This document shows, one piece after another, positions 2,739 to 35,002 of a stretch of DNA of 64,000 bases. The notes beneath the pieces were generated by a model. It worked only from the letters and a program-made list of their open reading frames with translations, did not search any database and was not told the DNA's origin. The DNA comes from an uncultured Microbulbifer sp. (GTDB taxonomy: Bacteria; Pseudomonadota; Gammaproteobacteria; Pseudomonadales; Cellvibrionaceae): assembly GCF_947504145.1 (NCBI RefSeq), contig NZ_CANNGQ010000001.1, forward strand, positions 1,238,737 through 1,302,736, in the 5' to 3' direction. The first letter of the stretch is position 1; each line of letters begins with the position of its first letter. The translations under genes and the position numbers were made by a program.

Positions 2739-3359
2739 TCAGGCTGTGCCCGGTACGCCACTGTGAAAACGGAAGTCACCGTCTCCGCTCTGCACCAATC
2801 CCCGTTCAACTTCCAACAATGCCTGGACGCGCGGGCCGATATCCTCATCGGCCGCCTTCTGTGCCAGAGCCAGGTAATCGCGAAAATGGCGCGCTTCGGA
2901 CTTCAGGAGTGACAGGTAGAATTTCTGCAGCTCATCGTCCAGATGCGGCGCAATACGGGCGAACCGTTCGCAAGAGCGCGCCTCGATAATCGCGCCGCAA
3001 ATCAGTGTATCCACCAGACGGCCCGGCTCTACCTTGCGAACCTGATCCCTCAGGCCCGCGGCATAGCGCGACGCACTGATATGCGGGTACTGGATGCCGC
3101 GCTTTTTCATGATCGCGATAACCTGCTCAAAATGCCGCAACTCTTCCCGTGCCAGGCGTGACATTTTGTTCAGCAACTCGAAATTGTCGAGGTAACGAAA
3201 CATCAGATTCAACGCCGTTCCCGCCGCTTTCTTTTCACAATTGGCATGGTCCACCAGCATCAGTTCCGGCTCGGCCAGTGCCGCCTGCACCCAGGCGTCG
3301 GGGGTCTCGCACAGCAGAAACTCGTGAATGGCGGAGAGGTCGGGCACTTCGTAACTCAT
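2739..3359 (-). CDS. miaE: tRNA-(ms2io6A)-hydroxylase MiaE
   Basis: Non-haem diiron monooxygenase that hydroxylates 2-methylthio-N6-isopentenyladenosine at position 37 of tRNAs reading U-starting codons. The 206 aa form a ferritin-like four-helix bundle with a full set of putative iron ligands: Glu42 (DHANCEKKAAG), Glu73 and His76 (REELRHF), Glu126 (IIEARSCERF), Glu155 and His158 (KSEARHF). Length and motifs fit MiaE of gammaproteobacteria. The gene stands alone on the minus strand, convergent with the LysR gene. The assignment is firm at family level. Confidence 0.93.
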   Translation of the reverse strand: MSYEVPDLSAIHEFLLCETPDAWVQAALAEPELMLVDHANCEKKAAGTALNLMFRYLDNFELLNKMSRLAREELRHFEQVIAIMKKRGIQYPHISASRYAAGLRDQVRKVEPGRLVDTLICGAIIEARSCERFARIAPHLDDELQKFYLSLLKSEARHFRDYLALAQKAADEDIGPRVQALLEVERGLVQSGDGDFRFHSGVPGTA

Positions 3360-3478: not shown

Positions 3479-3494
3479 TTTGATAACGACTTAT
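3479..3494 (-). promoter_or_regulatory. weak Ter-like sequence upstream of the tus-like gene
   Basis: On the minus strand this reads ATAAGTCGTTATCAAA, which agrees with the E. coli Ter consensus (GTATGTTGTAACTAAA, from memory) at 10 of 16 positions. In E. coli a Ter site overlaps the tus promoter and mediates autoregulation, which is why this position was examined. The TTGTAAC core is not conserved, so the call is tentative. Confidence 0.2.
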
Positions 3495-3539
3495 TAAGTG
3501 GATTATATTTACCACCCAAGTGCATAAATACCCGAGGCC

Positions 3540-4472
3540 ATGCCGGTGACCAAACCCAGCCCAAACAAGCTAGCCCTGAAACTGCCCGCCTCACTTAGCG
3601 CTCTGCACCAAGAAGCCGCACAACTGGCCGAAATACTGGCACAACAGGAAAACGCCACGCGGCCCTGGCAGCACTATCTACTACAGCCGACCTTTGCCCA
3701 GTTTGCCGCCGAGCAACTGGGGCACCCCTTCGATACGCCTTTCCGGCTTGCTGCCGCACTGCTGGCGCGCCTCGATTACGAGGAAGAGCCCGGGCACAGC
3801 GACGCGCGCAACACCCTGCAAATTCCCGGATTACTGGCTGTGCCACCGCAAGCCATCACGCAGGCCCAGGCACTAAATAAAGCCAAAGCTGAGTTTCAGA
3901 ATCTGACCACTGAAATCAAGGCTGCACTGGCGCCCCGCCCTACACTGGAACGGGACCGGCAACTGAGGGAAATGCTCGCCGACGCAGGCTACCCACGAGC
4001 CCACCTGCGGCAGTGCTATCGACAGGTATTGCTGTGCCCGGAGAAACCGGATGCACTCACGCTGAGTTGGATCAAGGCGCGAAAATCCATTCGCAAGGTC
4101 ACCGTGGACTGGTGCGAGCGTAAACTGGTCCAGCTGGACGCTCAGGGGCAGGACACCGGCATCCAGTATCAACGACAGTTACTAGCCGACCTGCCCGGGA
4201 GCCGGCACCAGAGCCTGCGCCAGGTGCAGATACAGAGCCGGCCCAATCTACAGGTCGCCGAGATATTCCGGAATGACGAGGAAGAGCAATATCGACAGGT
4301 GGGCTATTCGGCCATGCCTGTGTTGGTACACGGCGGCAAAGATCGGTTATTGCCGGACTTTACCCGGGTAGATCACAACCCGCCGACCAGCCAACGCAGG
4401 ACCCGCCGGGACCTGAAGATCGAAAAGACGCCTTTTCTCGCAGCACTCAGGGTGCACCTAGTGTCGGAATGA
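3540..4472 (+). CDS. tus: Tus-family DNA replication terminus site-binding protein
   Basis: A 310-aa protein; E. coli Tus is 309 aa. Several blocks align in order with recalled E. coli Tus: IPGLLAVPPQAITQAQALNK (residues about 95-114) with the LPGVL...LSQAALVSHI block; CYRQVLLCPEKPDALTLSW followed by ARKSIRK with the AYRTLTVLHDPATLRFGW and NKHIIK block; the basic VQIQSRPNLQVAEIF region; and the C-terminal LRVHLVSE with LHLYVAD. Tus binds Ter sites and arrests replisomes with polarity. The Phe140/His144 locking-pocket residues could not be placed with confidence; gapless alignment puts other residues there. It is convergent with the downstream minus-strand gene. No other family fits as well. 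Confidence 0.75.
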   Translation: MPVTKPSPNKLALKLPASLSALHQEAAQLAEILAQQENATRPWQHYLLQPTFAQFAAEQLGHPFDTPFRLAAALLARLDYEEEPGHSDARNTLQIPGLLAVPPQAITQAQALNKAKAEFQNLTTEIKAALAPRPTLERDRQLREMLADAGYPRAHLRQCYRQVLLCPEKPDALTLSWIKARKSIRKVTVDWCERKLVQLDAQGQDTGIQYQRQLLADLPGSRHQSLRQVQIQSRPNLQVAEIFRNDEEEQYRQVGYSAMPVLVHGGKDRLLPDFTRVDHNPPTSQRRTRRDLKIEKTPFLAALRVHLVSE

Positions 4473-6070: not shown

Positions 6071-6538
6071 TCAACCGGCCTGACTCGCGAGTCCCGGCGC
6101 CACAAAGCGCTGATAATAGGCCAATGACAGCGCGTAAAAATCTTCATCTATACGCCGCCGCAGCTCGACCAGGGATACACCGCGCGCCATCGGCGTGGGC
6201 AACAGGCCATAGGCGGCCGGCTCCCCGATTTGGCTGGCACCAGCGCGAAGCAATTCAAACACCCAGCAATAGGGATTCTGATCTTCGTTAAAACGGATCT
6301 GCTGATGGCGCATCTGTGACAGCAGCAGGTTTTGATCGACGATCTCCAGCTGACTTCGCACGGCATTTGCAAGATAACCGTCACGGCGCTCCGCTATGAT
6401 ACGGCGCTGCTCTTCGGAATAGGCGTTCCAGTCGATCACTTCGTGGGCAAAGCGCTTGCAGCCCCGGCAGACGTCGTCACCGATTCCCGTAGAACAGACC
6501 CCGATACAGGGCGTGCGCACTTTTTTATAGATTGCCAT
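6071..6538 (-). CDS. DUF1289 cysteine-motif protein
   Basis: A small protein of 155 aa if started at the ATG at 6538; an in-frame ATG at 6571 gives 166 aa. The N-terminus carries the DUF1289 cysteine pattern: Cys11 and Cys15 (TPCIGVC), then Cys24 and Cys27 (DVCRGC), followed by KRFAHEVIDWNAYSEEQRR. The pattern suggests metal binding, but the family has no established role. The C-terminal extension (about residues 60-155) is longer than in minimal DUF1289 proteins and is unrecognised. It lies upstream of the lipid kinase on the same strand with a 76-bp gap. Confidence 0.8.
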   Translation of the reverse strand: MAIYKKVRTPCIGVCSTGIGDDVCRGCKRFAHEVIDWNAYSEEQRRIIAERRDGYLANAVRSQLEIVDQNLLLSQMRHQQIRFNEDQNPYCWVFELLRAGASQIGEPAAYGLLPTPMARGVSLVELRRRIDEDFYALSLAYYQRFVAPGLASQAG

Positions 6539-6916
6539 GCGGCGGGAATACCTCATCTTCTGCCCGAACATCTTCCCGCGGGCCGAAATAAAACAGTGTG
6601 AAAGTAAGCGGCACAGAATAGCATTTTTGATGGCGGGTTTCGTCCATTCACCTTATGGATATTGGGGGCGACAAATGCGATTGATTCTCAGGATCAAAGC
6701 GGGAATTTATCGACCTTTATTCACGAAATGAATGACCACAATTCGCGTAAGTTATTGATTTTTCAACGAACTTAACAGCACCAAGCGATTAATGTAGAAT
6801 TCGCCACCCGCTTCCAGCGGCCATCGATGTAAATCGGAGTCTGGTTGACGAAAAATCCCATCCGGATTCCAGGAAAGCTGTTGGTTCCACCCCATACACC
6901 AAAGAGGGAATTATCC
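6539..6916 (+). other. upstream region of acnB
   Basis: About 380 bp without a gene between divergent DUF1289 and acnB starts. It carries the acnB promoter candidate at 6772-6800 and a roughly 110-nt leader ending in GAGGGA just before the GTG. Nothing else was recognised. Confidence 0.5.
6772..6800 (+). promoter_or_regulatory. candidate sigma-70 promoter of acnB
   Basis: TTAACA (6772-6777), a 17-nt spacer and TAGAAT (6795-6800). Each hexamer differs from consensus at one position. It would give a leader of about 110 nt before acnB. Confidence 0.5.
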
Positions 6917-9532
6917 GTGCTTGAAGCCTATCGCAAACACGTCGCCGAGCGCGCCGAACAAGATATCCCACCCAAGCCCCTGAACGCCGAACAGGTTGCC
7001 GGGCTGGTTGAACTGCTGAAAAGCCCACCCGCCGGTGAAGAGCAGGAACTGCTGGACCTGATCACCAACCGCGTACCGCCGGGTGTGGACGAGGCCGCCT
7101 ACGTTAAAGCCGGTTTCCTCACCGCCATCGTCAAGGGCGAGGCCGAGTCCCCGCTGATCGATAAAGAACACGCCACCAAACTGCTGGGCATGATGCTCGG
7201 CGGCTACAACATCGCCACCCTGGTAGACCTGCTGGACGACAAAGACCTGGCAGAACTCGCCGGTGAGCAGCTGAAAGGCACCCTGCTGATGTTCGACGCC
7301 TTCCACGACGTGGAAGAGAAAGCCAAAGCAGGCAACGAAGTGGCCAAGGCCGTAATCCAGTCCTGGGCCGACGGCGAATGGTTCACCAAGCGCAACAAGG
7401 TTGCCGAGAGCATCAAGGTTGCCGTATTCAAGGTGACCGGCGAAACCAATACCGACGACCTGTCTCCGGCTCCGGATGCCTGGTCCCGCCCGGACATCCC
7501 CCTGCACGCGCGCGCCATGTACAAAATGACCCGCGACGGCCTCACGCCTGAAGAACACGGCGTAACCGGCCCGATGAAGCAGGTTGCCGAGGTACAGGAA
7601 AAAGGCTACCCGGTTGCCTTCGTGGGCGACGTTGTGGGTACCGGCTCTTCCCGTAAGTCCGCCACCAACTCCGTACTGTGGTTCTTCGGTGACGACCTGC
7701 CGGGCGTACCGAACAAGAAAGGCGGTGGTATCTGTATCGGCGGTAAAGTAGCCCCGATCTTCTACAACACCATGGAAGACGCCGGTGCACTGGTCTTCGA
7801 AGCGCCGGTTGACGACCTCAACATGGGCGACATCATCGAGATCCGCCCCTACGAAGGTAAAATCCTCGCCGAAGACGGCAAGGTTCTGTCCGAGTTTGAA
7901 CTGAAGTCTGACGTACTGCTGGACGAAGTGCAGGCTGGTGGCCGTATCAACCTGATCGTTGGCCGCGGTCTGACCACCAAGGCCCGCGAATCTCTGGGCC
8001 TGCCGGCGTCTGACCTGTTCCGCCTGCCGGAGCAGCCGAACGACACTGGCAAGGGTTTCACCCTGGCACAGAAAATGGTCGGTAAAGCCTGCGGTATCGA
8101 CGGCGTTCGCCCCGGCACCTACTGCGAGCCGAAGATGACCACCGTCGGTTCCCAGGACACCACGGGCCCGATGACCCGCGACGAACTGAAAGACCTGGCG
8201 TGTCTCGGCTTCCAGGCCGACCTCACCATGCAGTCTTTCTGTCACACCGCGGCTTACCCCAAGCCCGTTGATATCGACACCCAGCACACCCTGCCGGACT
8301 TCATCATGAACCGCGGCGGCGTTTCCCTGCGTCCGGGCGACGGCATCATTCACAGCTGGCTGAACCGCATGCTGCTGCCGGACACCGTCGGTACCGGTGG
8401 TGATTCCCACACCCGCTTCCCCATGGGCATCTCCTTCCCGGCCGGTTCCGGTCTGGTTGCCTTTGCCGCGGCCACCGGCGTAATGCCGCTGGATATGCCG
8501 GAATCCGTACTGGTGCGCTTCAAAGGCGAAATGCAGCCGGGCATCACCCTGCGCGACCTGGTACACGCCATTCCTTACTACGCGATCCAGGAAGGCCTGC
8601 TGACCGTCGAGAAGAAAGGCAAGAAGAACATCTTCTCCGGCCGCATCCTCGAGATCGAAGGTCTGGACGCTCTGACCGTAGAGCAGGCGTTCGAACTGTC
8701 CGACGCCTCCGCCGAGCGCTCCGCCGCTGGCTGTACCATCAAGCTGCCGGAAGACTCCATCTCCGAGTACCTGCGTTCCAACATCACCCTGCTGCGCTGG
8801 ATGATTGCGGAAGGCTACGGCGACAAGCGCACCCTGGAGCGTCGCGCACGCGCCATGGAAGCCTGGCTGGAAAAACCGGAACTGATGAGCGCCGACGCCG
8901 ACGCGGAGTACGCGGCCGTGATCGAAATCGATCTGGCAGAAGTGAAAGAGCCCATCGTGTGCTGCCCGAACGACCCGGACGACGCCAAGCTGCTGTCTGA
9001 CGTGGCCGGCGACAAGGTAGACGAAGTGTTCATCGGCTCCTGCATGACCAACATCGGTCACTTCCGCGCCGCAGGTAAACTGCTGCAGCAACATAAAGGT
9101 GGTATCTCCACCCGCATGTGGATCTCGCCGCCTACCAAGATGGACGAGCACCAGCTGATGGAAGAAGGCTACTACAACATCTACGGCGCAGCCGGTGCAC
9201 GCACCGAAATGCCCGGATGCTCCCTGTGCATGGGTAACCAGGCACGTGTAGCCCCGAACAGCACCGTACTGTCCACCTCCACCCGTAACTTCCCGAACCG
9301 CCTCGGCGACGGTGCCAACGTGTACCTGACCTCCGCGGAACTGGCCTCTGTAGGCGCCATCCTGGGCAAACTGCCGACCCCGGCGGAATACCAGGAATAC
9401 GCCCAGAACCTGAACTCCATGTCTGCGGAAATCTACCGCTACCTGAACTTCGACCAGATTGAAGACTTCCAGAAGTCTGCCGAAGAAGGTAAGCGCATTG
9501 CCGCGACCGAGATTCAGGATGTTGCGGTTTAA
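6917..9532 (+). CDS. acnB: bifunctional aconitate hydratase 2 / 2-methylisocitrate dehydratase
   Basis: TCA-cycle [4Fe-4S] enzyme isomerising citrate and isocitrate via cis-aconitate. The chosen GTG at 6917 (871 aa) begins [15 protein letters not shown], matching the E. coli AcnB start [13 protein letters not shown], and has GAGGGA 7 nt upstream; an ATG at 6845 would add 24 residues with no family counterpart. AcnB order is visible: HEAT-like domain, swivel domain, then catalytic domains. The cluster cysteines are in [15 protein letters not shown] and [13 protein letters not shown] near the C-terminus. It is a single-gene unit ending at a strong terminator. Identification is firm. Confidence 0.97.
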
Positions 9533-28679: not shown

Positions 28680-30437
28680 TCACCTTGAGCACCCCTCGGT
28701 GTTCTCACGCAGTTCGTTAAATGCCTGAAACTGTGTAAAAAACACTTTCCCGGAGATTTCCCTCAGAAAGCCACAGCGCTCAAGGTTATCCATCACCGGC
28801 CCTTTCACCTCCGAAAGGTGTAAGCAAACCCCGGTTTCCGCCAGCTGGATATTGATGGATTCCAGCGTTTCCAATGCACTCCAGTCAATCTCATTGACTG
28901 CGCTGCAAATCAGGATCACGTGGCGAATGTCCGCATTGGCGGCAACATCCGCATAAATTCGTTCTTCCAGAAACGCGGCATTGGAAAACATCAGGCTCTC
29001 GTCCACGCGGATCGCGAGAACCTGGGGCACCGTAACAACCTTGTGTCGTTTGATATTGCGAAAGTGCTCGGTGCCCTCCACCAGGCCAACTTCGGCAATA
29101 TGCGGTTTGGAAGTGCGGTACAGAAACAACACCACAGATGCGCCGACACCGCAGGAAACCCCCGCCTCTACCCCGAACAACAGAGTGACGACGATGGTAA
29201 CCAACACCGCAAAGAAGTCGCTGGGCGAGAAGCGCCAGGTTTTCCGCAAAATGGAAAAATCCACCAGGGCCAGCACCGCAACAATAATGGTCGCCGCCAG
29301 TGTTGCCTTGGGCAGATAGTAGAGAAATGGGGTTAGGAACATTGCCGCCAGCGCAATGCCCAGTGCGGTAAACACACTGGCCATTTGCGTTTCCGCACCC
29401 GCATCAAAGTTGACCACGGAACGGGAAAAGCCCCCGGTAACCGGGAAGCCGCCAGACACACCGGATGCCAGATTGGCGGTACCGAGCCCAATCAGCTCCT
29501 GATTCATGTCCACCTTCTGGCGGCGCTTGGCCGCCAGGGTTTTGCCGACGGAGATGGATTCCACATAACCAATGATCGAGATCATGACGGCGGGCAGCCA
29601 CAGTTGCCGAACGAGTTCCATGGAAAAATTCGGCCAGCCAAAACTCGGCAATCCGCTGGGTATTTCTCCCACCAGTTTTACGCCCCGGGCCTCCAGGTCC
29701 AGTCCGCTGGCAAGCAGAATGGTAATGAGCACTCCCACGACGGGTGCGGCTTTCACCAGCAGCGCGGCAGTGCTTTCTGACACAGAGAGACGCTGCAGCA
29801 AGCGCACGGCACCGGCACGTGACCAGAATAAAAAGAGGACGACACCCCCGCCCAACAGCAGCGAATACAAATTCGTCTCGCCCATACCGGTGTACATGGA
29901 GTGCAGGAATGCCGGCAAGTTATCTCCGTTTGCCGGAATCCCCATCAGGTGCTTCAGCTGGCTAAATGCGATCAGCACACCGGAGGCGGTGATAAATCCG
30001 GAGATCACCGGGTGAGAAAGGAAGTTGGCCAGGAAGCCCAAGCGCAACACGCCCAGCAACAGGAGAAACAGACCGGACAAGGTAGCTAGCAGCGTCGCTG
30101 CCACAAGATAGTCTGCGGCATTCTGAGCGGCAACCTGGCCAAGAGCCGCTGCGCTCATCAACGAGGCAACAGCAACCGGCCCCACCGACAGGGTGCTGCT
30201 GGAGCCAAACATCGCGTAAGCGACCAGCGGTGCGATACTCGCGTAAAGCCCCACCTCAGGCGGCAATCCAGCCAGTAATGCATAGGCCAGAGACTGCGGA
30301 ATCAGCATGATGGTGACAATGACGGCCGCGAGCAGATCCCTTTGCAGGGATCCCATTGAATATACGGGCAACCAATTGGCGGCGGGAAGAAACCGACCAA
30401 TGCTGCGCTGCAAACCGTTATTGGAAACTTCTCTCAC
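28680..30437 (-). CDS. SulP family anion transporter with STAS domain
   Basis: A 585-aa inner-membrane SulP transporter. The transport core shows IPQSLAYALLAGLPPEVGLY, GSSSTLSVGPVAVASLM, NQELIGLGTANLASGVSGGF and PVTGGFSRSVVNFDAGAETQ. A C-terminal cytoplasmic STAS domain occupies about residues 430-550 (HKVVTVPQVLAIRVDESLMF, HVILICSAVNEIDWSALETL). It is the last gene of a minus-strand operon with DUF442 and persulfide dioxygenase genes, so sulfate, sulfite or thiosulfate is a plausible substrate. A close paralogue ends the divergent plus-strand operon at 33260-35002. Confidence 0.92.
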   Translation of the reverse strand: MREVSNNGLQRSIGRFLPAANWLPVYSMGSLQRDLLAAVIVTIMLIPQSLAYALLAGLPPEVGLYASIAPLVAYAMFGSSSTLSVGPVAVASLMSAAALGQVAAQNAADYLVAATLLATLSGLFLLLLGVLRLGFLANFLSHPVISGFITASGVLIAFSQLKHLMGIPANGDNLPAFLHSMYTGMGETNLYSLLLGGGVVLFLFWSRAGAVRLLQRLSVSESTAALLVKAAPVVGVLITILLASGLDLEARGVKLVGEIPSGLPSFGWPNFSMELVRQLWLPAVMISIIGYVESISVGKTLAAKRRQKVDMNQELIGLGTANLASGVSGGFPVTGGFSRSVVNFDAGAETQMASVFTALGIALAAMFLTPFLYYLPKATLAATIIVAVLALVDFSILRKTWRFSPSDFFAVLVTIVVTLLFGVEAGVSCGVGASVVLFLYRTSKPHIAEVGLVEGTEHFRNIKRHKVVTVPQVLAIRVDESLMFSNAAFLEERIYADVAANADIRHVILICSAVNEIDWSALETLESINIQLAETGVCLHLSEVKGPVMDNLERCGFLREISGKVFFTQFQAFNELRENTEGCSR

Positions 30438-33259: not shown

Positions 33260-35002
33260 GTGATTCGGGCAAACCGACTAATTCCCCATTGGCTTAGAAA
33301 TTATCGCCTCCAGCTGCTGCCCTCAGATATGACCGCAGCACTGGTTTCGGGAATGCTGCTGGTGCCGCAGGGGCTCGCGTATGCGCTATTGGCAGGGCTT
33401 CCACCGCATTTCGGGCTCTATGCCTCTCTGATCCCTCTCATTGCCTACGCCGCATTTGGCAGCAGCAGCGCCATGTCGGTAGGGCCGGCGGCGGTCCTGT
33501 CCCTGATGACCGTATCGGCACTTACACCGCTGGCGACGATCGGCAGCCCCGAATATATCGGCGCCGCCATCGTACTGACCCTGCTGAGCGGGCTTTTCCT
33601 GTTCACCATGGGGCTGTTCAAAATGGGCGCCCTTTCCAACATGCTCAGCCATCCGGTGATCAGCGGCTTCGTGTCCGGTGCCGCGGCACTCATTATTGTC
33701 GGTCAGCTGCCCGCACTTTTGGGTATCGAGGCGGAAGGTGATACCGCGTCACTCAAGCTGTTTCACGTTGTGGAGCGTCTGCCGGATGCGCATTTGCCCA
33801 CCATGGCCTTTGGTGTCGCCACTGCGTTGCTGCTGATCTTCAGCCGCCTGTGGTTACCGATGCTGTTGTTCCGCCTCGGCGCACCCAAACAGATAGCACG
33901 ACTGGCGGCAAAGGTGACGCCGATGCTGCTGGTGTTGTGCGCGATCGCGCTGGTTCATTGGCTGAAACTCGGCGACCAGCTGAAAATCGTAGGCGACATT
34001 CCCGCGGGGCTCCCCAAAATCGTCATTCCCGAGTGGAACGGAAGCCTGGTTTACCGGCTGCTGTTACCAGCTCTGATCATTGCCCTGCTGACCTTTGTCG
34101 AGAGCCTTTCCATTGCCCAGGCACTGGCGGCCCGCCGCGGTGAGCGGCTGAATGCGGATGGGGAACTACTTGGCCTGGGTGCAGCCAATATCACCAGTGC
34201 CTTCTCGGGCGGACTGCCGGTGGCGGGGAGCTTTTCTCGCACGGCGGTCAATGCCGAAGCCGGCGCGGTGTCGCCACTGGCCGGGGTGTTGGCTGCGCTG
34301 TTGATGATACCGGTGCTGCTGTACCTCACCGGAATGTTCAGCGAGCTGCCGCTGACAGTGCTCGCCGCCATTATCATTGTCGCCGCGGCGAGCCTGTTCG
34401 ATTATCGCGGCTTCATCCACAACTGGCGCTACGACCGCACCGACGGCATCGCCATGCTGTGCACTTTTCTCGGGGTACTGCTGTTCGGGGTCGAGGTGGG
34501 TATCGCGCTGGGGATCGGTCTCTCATTCGCCACACTCATATGGCGCAGTAGCCGGCCACATATCGCCGTGGTGGGACGGATGCCCGGTACCGAACATTTC
34601 CGAAACGTGCTGCGCTACGACGTGGAGACCCACAGCGAGATTCTTTTTCTTCGCATTGATGAGAGCCTGTTTTTCAGCAATATCAGCGCGGTAGAAGATC
34701 GACTGCTGAGTGAGCTGAAACGCCACCCGGACACCCGTGAACTGGTGCTGATCTTGTCGTCAGTCAGCCGTATCGACGGCACAGCACTGGAACGCATGCA
34801 CCAGATTAATAAGGACCTGAAAAACCGTGAAATCCGACTGCATCTTGCCGAAGTCAAAGGCCCGGTGCTGGATCGCCTGAGTCGCTCACGGCTTCTGGAA
34901 AAACTGAGCGGCCGAATTTTTCTCTCCTCCTACATTGCCGAACTTGCGCTGCTACGCGCAGACGCCCCACCTGCACCCGATCAGGAAGAGCCGCCCGTAT
35001 AA
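33260..35002 (+). CDS. SulP family anion transporter with STAS domain
   Basis: A 580-aa inner-membrane transporter (GTG start), a paralogue of the one at 28680: both contain AYALLAGLPP, GLYAS, SVGP, PHIA and GTEHFRN in the same places. The core shows VPQGLAYALLAGLPPHFGLY and GLGAANITSAFSGGLPVAGS; the C-terminal STAS domain spans about 435-550 (ETHSEILFLRIDESLFFS, RELVLILSSVSRIDGTALER). It is 88 bp after pmpB on the same strand and probably in the same operon. A sulfite or sulfate exporter/importer role is inferred from context. Confidence 0.92.
   Translation: MIRANRLIPHWLRNYRLQLLPSDMTAALVSGMLLVPQGLAYALLAGLPPHFGLYASLIPLIAYAAFGSSSAMSVGPAAVLSLMTVSALTPLATIGSPEYIGAAIVLTLLSGLFLFTMGLFKMGALSNMLSHPVISGFVSGAAALIIVGQLPALLGIEAEGDTASLKLFHVVERLPDAHLPTMAFGVATALLLIFSRLWLPMLLFRLGAPKQIARLAAKVTPMLLVLCAIALVHWLKLGDQLKIVGDIPAGLPKIVIPEWNGSLVYRLLLPALIIALLTFVESLSIAQALAARRGERLNADGELLGLGAANITSAFSGGLPVAGSFSRTAVNAEAGAVSPLAGVLAALLMIPVLLYLTGMFSELPLTVLAAIIIVAAASLFDYRGFIHNWRYDRTDGIAMLCTFLGVLLFGVEVGIALGIGLSFATLIWRSSRPHIAVVGRMPGTEHFRNVLRYDVETHSEILFLRIDESLFFSNISAVEDRLLSELKRHPDTRELVLILSSVSRIDGTALERMHQINKDLKNREIRLHLAEVKGPVLDRLSRSRLLEKLSGRIFLSSYIAELALLRADAPPAPDQEEPPV

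Follow-up and report, generated by a model that had tools for sequence, protein, structure and literature searches.

The stretch analysed here, called the window throughout, comprises 64,000 nucleotides of an uncultured Microbulbifer genome (G000:C1:1238737-1302736). Close to its start lies an open reading frame for a protein of 310 aa, with miaE on one side and a DUF1289 protein gene and acnB on the other. It is preceded by a short asymmetric sequence that overlaps the predicted promoter and that had not been part of the initial annotation. The features are as follows.

2739-3359, minus strand: miaE, divergent neighbour (Pfam MiaE, 9.9e-80)
3480-3502, plus strand: Ter-like site TTGATAACGACTTATTAAGTGGA, with its TTGATAACG end towards dif (conserved upstream block, opposite copy across dif, genus-wide arrangement)
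3480-3509, plus strand: predicted sigma-70-like promoter TTGATA-18-TATATT, overlapping the Ter-like site (consensus scan, 10 of 12 matches, in itself no sign of function)
3540-4472, plus strand: gene for a Tus-related putative terminator protein, 310 aa (open reading frame, translation, family alignment A1, hhalign comparison with Tus)
6071-6571, minus strand: DUF1289 protein gene, downstream neighbour (Pfam)
6845-9532, plus strand: acnB, downstream neighbour (Pfam aconitase B domains)

The frame at 3540-4472 is open from an ATG that has GAGG a few bases 5' of it, and the opposite strand of the same stretch is rich in stop codons. It is a genuine gene that is conserved in Microbulbifer, since relatives at 57-63% identity occur in six other genomes of the genus; M. 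hainanensis and M. sediminum are among the hosts. With the window protein as single query, relatives were found in 44 of 194 genomes sampled across its order, which we take to be Pseudomonadales (GTDB), and a profile of 30 relatives (A1) detected the gene in 52 of them, spread over 32 of the 96 genera sampled. In the class sample, this profile detected it in 26 of 369 genomes, among them three members of the order (G000, which is the window's genome, G036 and G073). Relatives of the clade are also carried by 27 plasmid records (H1-H27), at least four of whose proteins bear the annotation "DNA replication terminus site-binding protein", which means that annotation pipelines recognise part of the clade. 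The hosts of these plasmids include Halomonas, Pseudomonas, Vibrio and Methylophaga, among others, and several are megaplasmids of 0.9-1.2 Mb. No relatives of the family were found in scans of viral contigs. One genome holds a second, more distant copy (G132:C3:5976-6848), which resembles the only copy of G006 (G006:C13:131001-131870) with equal alignment range and length and is perhaps a mobile version. Weak matches to the uncharacterised family DUF6586 (PF20227), possibly a distant relative, were seen in two of 30 family members (best 0.002); neither name is mentioned in the papers searched.

The neighbourhood of the gene is largely constant within the genus. It is adjoined by miaE in six of seven Microbulbifer loci, the exception being the short locus L005, in which miaE was not found, and DUF1289 and acnB lie downstream in six other Microbulbifer loci besides the window's own. 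Locus L009 of family f30 has miaE and acnB in common with the window, and the context is missing from five other short loci checked, all from other families. Conserved genomic context, by which Galli et al. (2019) recognise resident tus genes, is thus found within the genus and at L009. Elsewhere in the window, two genes a few kb apart look by eye like SulP-type anion transporters (28680-30437, minus strand; 33260-35002, plus strand), and a carbonic anhydrase lies at 944-1618.

Relationship to Tus and the lock residues

The initial annotation had assigned the protein to the Tus family, outside its best-known hosts, on the strength of equal length and in-order resemblance to E. coli Tus, and had looked to a Tus profile search for confirmation. 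The length indeed agrees (309 aa for Tus of E. coli K-12). Searches of Pfam, NCBIfam and PDB with the window protein alone gave nothing at E <= 1, PF05472 and the RTP family PF02334 included, and the family profile likewise retrieved no Tus from the PDB sequences; because of these results, homology had to be established by profile-profile comparison. Aligned with hhalign against A3, which consists of E. coli K-12 Tus and three PF05472 proteins from the window's order, A1 gave an E-value of 2.7e-15 and a probability of 98.5 over 258 colinear columns, compared to 0.036 for reversed A3, 0.095 for reversed A1 and 0.32-0.94 for five column shuffles of A3. The expected profile match therefore failed for the single sequence and held for the family, and the in-order resemblance was borne out. 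Removal of the Microbulbifer rows from A1 left the match to A3 intact (6.1e-15), and the remaining rows matched the seven Microbulbifer rows at 4.9e-37. Used by themselves, the latter form too shallow a profile for a match to Tus (E 0.0069, probability 5.6), and A1 matched E. coli Tus alone at 1e-5.

Direct recognition by PF05472 was seen at E <= 1 for eight of 30 family members (best 9.4e-7) and at E <= 0.1 for eight of ten class-level relatives, four of which exceed the cut-off (L108, L111, L115, L120). In a tree of 47 proteins, whose deep branches include several long ones marked as uncertain, classical Tus together with L120 (5 rows) was split from the clade of the window protein (42 rows) with support of 98/90. 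Within that clade, 29 of the 30 order rows grouped (94/94), L030 falling outside; families f1, f36 and f30 formed single clades, which f6 and f38 did not. Classical PF05472 proteins exist in eight of the 194 order genomes, six of them over the cut-off, and none was found in G000; the one in G093 lies 61 kb from dif. An AlphaFold2 model built with three sequences was poor (mean pLDDT 44.7). Judged from the profile comparison and the tree, the window protein and Tus have a common ancestor; the protein falls below the PF05472 cut-off and is placed in a clade that is sister to classical Tus. The earlier assignment is thereby supported and refined: the window represents one case among the 32 of 96 sampled order genera that contain the gene.

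Phe140 and His144 are the cytosine-lock residues of E. coli Tus. The hhalign pairing places Asp139 opposite Phe140 and Arg143 opposite His144, and both residues are invariant in all seven Microbulbifer rows, in agreement with the earlier remark that the Phe/His pair was not evident. Across the family, the lock positions were located at a constant distance from the conserved Arg161, a procedure that agrees with the hhalign pairing for the window protein. Phe does not occur in any of the 30 members at the position of Phe140 (His 9, Asp 8, Tyr 3, Asn 3, Ser 3, Pro 2, Gly 1, Ala 1), and His is present at the position of His144 in four. The positions of R139, L147 and G149 are mostly retained. Compared with E. 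coli Tus, the loop is extended by about five residues, and its R153 and H155 are kept in at least 90% of rows. Since two of the three PF05472 rows of A3 carry Arg for His144, the pocket varies even in classical Tus. The lock of the window's protein is probably altered, as the initial annotation had suspected from the same residues, and arrest would then proceed via a pocket of residues other than Phe140 and His144.

Asymmetric sites about dif

The surmise that the window lies near the replication terminus was confirmed: a dif-like site with three mismatches to the E. coli-type dif lies on the same contig, 253 kb from the gene locus. In a sample of 20 stretches of 20 kb, of which stretch L161 contains dif, GC skew was positive in nine of ten stretches to the left of dif and negative in nine of nine to the right, and the polarity of KOPS flips at dif (33 against 4 left of it and 1 against 31 right of it). 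A position matrix detected two strong sites, at 723,230 on the minus strand (32.7 bits) and at 1,242,216 on the plus strand (42.5 bits), and the next best score in the 20 stretches was 10.0. The minus site lies 266 kb to the left of dif, between larger ORFs, and the plus site 253 kb to the right; they are 519 kb apart, with their midpoint 6.6 kb from dif. A genome-wide pattern search returned the same two sites and one match with three mismatches. The genome thus contains Ter-like sites, the presence of which the initial annotation had tied to its proposal, and they are polar about dif.

The plus site is the one upstream of the gene in the window. Its 19-base core has a single match in the window at up to three mismatches (0.02 expected). 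The common block reads TTGATAACGACTTATTAAGTGGA in the window and AGATAACGGTATA in most other families. A site was seen at the gene, within its first 60 called bases or no more than 200 bp upstream of it, in 18 of 32 loci and not in the other 14; in G073, G177, G005 and G103 the nearest site is not adjacent to the gene. The position is equivalent to that of TerB before E. coli tus. In an ungapped overlay on TerB, the Microbulbifer sites share G6 and the AAGTG at 20-24, and the promoter copies L043 and L047 also match the TAATATT of TerB beyond; the retained G at Ter position 6 has to be seen in the light of a G built into the search patterns and of few core matches in the overlay. By analogy with TerB and tus, the promoter site at 3480-3502 may serve autorepression. 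Upstream regions of class-level relatives contain other candidate motifs. Among them is GGTTATGGGATAA, which precedes the gene in L111, L112 and L113 of family f76 and may represent a Ter site of different sequence.

The same arrangement recurs throughout the genus, where sites alone were scored in 48 genomes. At up to two mismatches, 45 genomes have at least one site (1-4 per site-bearing genome) and 38 have two or more, with 100 sites in total compared to one for the reversed-pattern control. No site at this threshold was found in G569 (complete), G589 (80% complete) and G593 (88%). Both orientations occur on 23 contigs, and 22 of these are ordered minus then plus with innermost distances of 168-767 kb; the 23rd (G590) fits this arrangement if its contig represents an opened circle. 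In the rest of the order, the site reads AGATAACGGTATAAW, and all 15 contigs with both orientations are again ordered minus then plus, up to an array of five minus and five plus sites in G111. At up to one mismatch, the order pattern gave 89 matches in 18 genomes compared to nine for the control.

Of 55 sites in 14 genomes, 53 are directed away from dif or the antipode of dnaA, and agreement among 54 of the 55 was 27 of 29 by dif and 25 of 25 by the antipode, the remaining one being the site of G069. The two that do not comply are the three-mismatch match of G000 and the single match of G185. Such weak sites are unreliable because the reversed control yields eight matches against 24 at three mismatches, and the agreeing sites also include some three-mismatch matches. 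A dif at up to three mismatches was not found in six of the 18 genomes; the antipode was used for G144, G189, G048, G075 and G005, and G138 was judged by order on the contig only. For G168 and likewise for G069, the one of three matches that shares its contig with dif was assessed. In G036, dif and the antipode are 222 kb apart, and the switch in orientation follows dif. The gene match of this genome (L023/L097, G036:C1:3012235-3013065) is broken by two stop codons, yet all eight sites of the genome keep their polarity about dif. In G176, repeated copies of AGATAACGGTATATT occur far from the main array (C1:180532 and 648786; C3:534319; C4:187742), and the C1 copies are in minus orientation on the minus side.

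The gene itself follows the same geometry. It lies 75-599 kb from dif in all eight genomes with both on one contig and is transcribed away from dif (8) or the antipode (5) in 13 of 13 genomes, on either side, as would be expected if its promoter holds a site obliged to face dif. Two of the genes, in G028 and G185, lie 80 and 599 kb from dif in genomes with no recognisable site array. Exact AGATAACGGTATAAW was found in 27 of 194 order genomes, of which 25 are among the 52 that carry the gene and two among the 142 that do not (Fisher p 6e-15); the latter two, G112 and G175, have one site each, and the control gave seven exact matches compared to 92. The 27 gene-positive genomes without exact AGATAACGGTATAAW include Microbulbifer, the sole group for which a variant site was found. 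The p-values treat related genomes as independent and thus overstate the evidence; the polarity, however, is seen in several families and to either side of dif.

A predicted polar fork trap

We propose that the locus encodes the terminator of a polar fork trap of the Tus-Ter type, in which the protein would bind asymmetric sites with a Ter sequence of their own, and we put the probability of this reading at roughly 93%. The terminator protein would recognise an asymmetric sequence roughly 20 bp long. Bound to the copy that overlaps the promoter of its own gene, it would act as autorepressor; the second strong copy is found beyond dif and is inverted relative to the first. A fork past dif would meet what we predict to be the blocking face of the bound site, its TTGATAACG face, and be stopped, a fork arriving from the origin would meet the other face and pass, and both forks would thus be confined to the 519-kb interval. 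The components of such a trap are present and arranged as it would need.

A protein of this kind could also be a sequence-specific regulator or a terminus-organising protein, whose polar sites serve segregation, membrane attachment or transcription without arresting forks. The overlap of the site with the promoter, the missing lock residues of Tus and the example of KOPS, which are likewise polar about dif, would fit this view. However, the protein is homologous to Tus, and the sites are few (1-4 in 45 genus genomes) and in Ter-like order, whereas KOPS are frequent. Moreover, the promoter copy obeys the same polarity and the gene points away from dif in 13 of 13 cases, as in E. coli, so that we consider a role without fork arrest very improbable. 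That both protein and promoter resemble a Tus-Ter system by chance is suggested by nothing but the failure of single-sequence database searches. The controlled profile comparison, the polarity of the sites, their co-occurrence with the gene and the rarity of reversed-pattern matches (one in 48 genus genomes and seven in 194 order genomes) make this explanation negligible.

If the fork trap is accepted, its age and its lock can still be read differently. The gene might have come in recently on a plasmid, as a 'mobile' tus in the terms of Galli et al., and not form a resident trap, given the 27 records of relatives on plasmids and megaplasmids, its patchy presence in the order (52 of 194 genomes) and the five loci of other families that lack the window's context. 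Against this stand the context common to the Microbulbifer loci and L009 of another family, the single clades formed by f1, f36 and f30, if not by f6 and f38, and the placement of the site arrays about dif, which together render a recent arrival improbable. Slightly less improbable, although still unlikely, is a classical cytosine lock whose pocket residues are merely misaligned. This view could draw on the G kept at the place of Ter G6 in the ungapped overlay of the Microbulbifer sites on TerB and on the mostly retained R139, L147 and G149 positions, but it has to contend with the absence of Phe from all 30 members, with His in four of 30, with the invariant Asp and Arg of Microbulbifer and with the longer loop; the Arg at His144 in two of three PF05472 rows also shows a variable pocket. 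A fork trap with a probably altered lock remains our preferred reading. Its most far-reaching form, to which we would give even chances, is a second, old and chromosomally resident Tus clade that provides fork traps across much of the order, with its own Ter code and no Phe/His cytosine lock; in its place would act, in Microbulbifer, an Asp139/Arg143 pocket, or else the near-invariant Arg153-x-His155 loop of the clade.

Comparison with known fork traps

In the published view, resident tus genes are assigned to most Enterobacterales, to Pseudoalteromonas (on the second chromosome) and to Aeromonadales and are traced to recent domestication from plasmids, and most orders are described as having no fork trap (PMC6549158; PMC10331603). 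The accessible text of PMC13220808 and PMC12809603 adds no further host. Galli et al. searched UniProt with PF05472 (PMC6549158), a profile that misses the window protein. Neither a fork trap or Ter site in the window's order nor the sequence GATAACGGTATA was found in the papers searched, a body of literature outside which most subscription papers and all preprints fall. One-way fork traps are probably more widespread than reported, because the window's genome combines a distant cousin of Tus with two matching, outward-pointing sites that flank the expected end of replication, and the latch may be a different one. If several families of another order do have traps with two to ten polar sites and a divergent Tus, the published picture would change; and if the clade is indeed old and resident, fork traps would be older and commoner than three recent plasmid domestications imply. 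Such traps would also offer natural variants for three questions, namely whether polar arrest needs the lock with its flipped cytosine, how terminator and Ter code co-evolve and what purpose fork traps have.

The closest known system is Tus-Ter of E. coli (PF05472), with a homologous protein of like length. Both systems have asymmetric sites oriented away from dif, one of them before the terminator gene, and a gene transcribed away from dif. They differ in the protein, which here falls short of the PF05472 cut-off as a member of the sister clade, lacks the Phe140/His144 pair and has a longer loop, in the core site, which reads GATAACG-[ACG]-... here and GTTGTAAC in E. coli, and in the number of sites, with two strong ones in the window's genome compared to about ten.

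The RTP-ter system of Bacillus subtilis, as described in PMC10331603, also combines polar arrest sites about the terminus with an autoregulated terminator gene, and both tus and rtp are stated there to be autoregulated through a ter site in the promoter. RTP is, however, an unrelated dimeric protein, and the window protein has no match to the RTP profile. The two-site, Type I Tus-Ter traps of Edwardsiella tarda and Cedecea neteri are described in PMC8707476. Their Tus proteins are classical, whereas the window protein is not, and the sites of E. tarda are 56 kb apart compared to 519 kb here, but the layout is the same: two sites about the terminus, near-symmetrical about dif, one of which lies upstream of the terminator gene.
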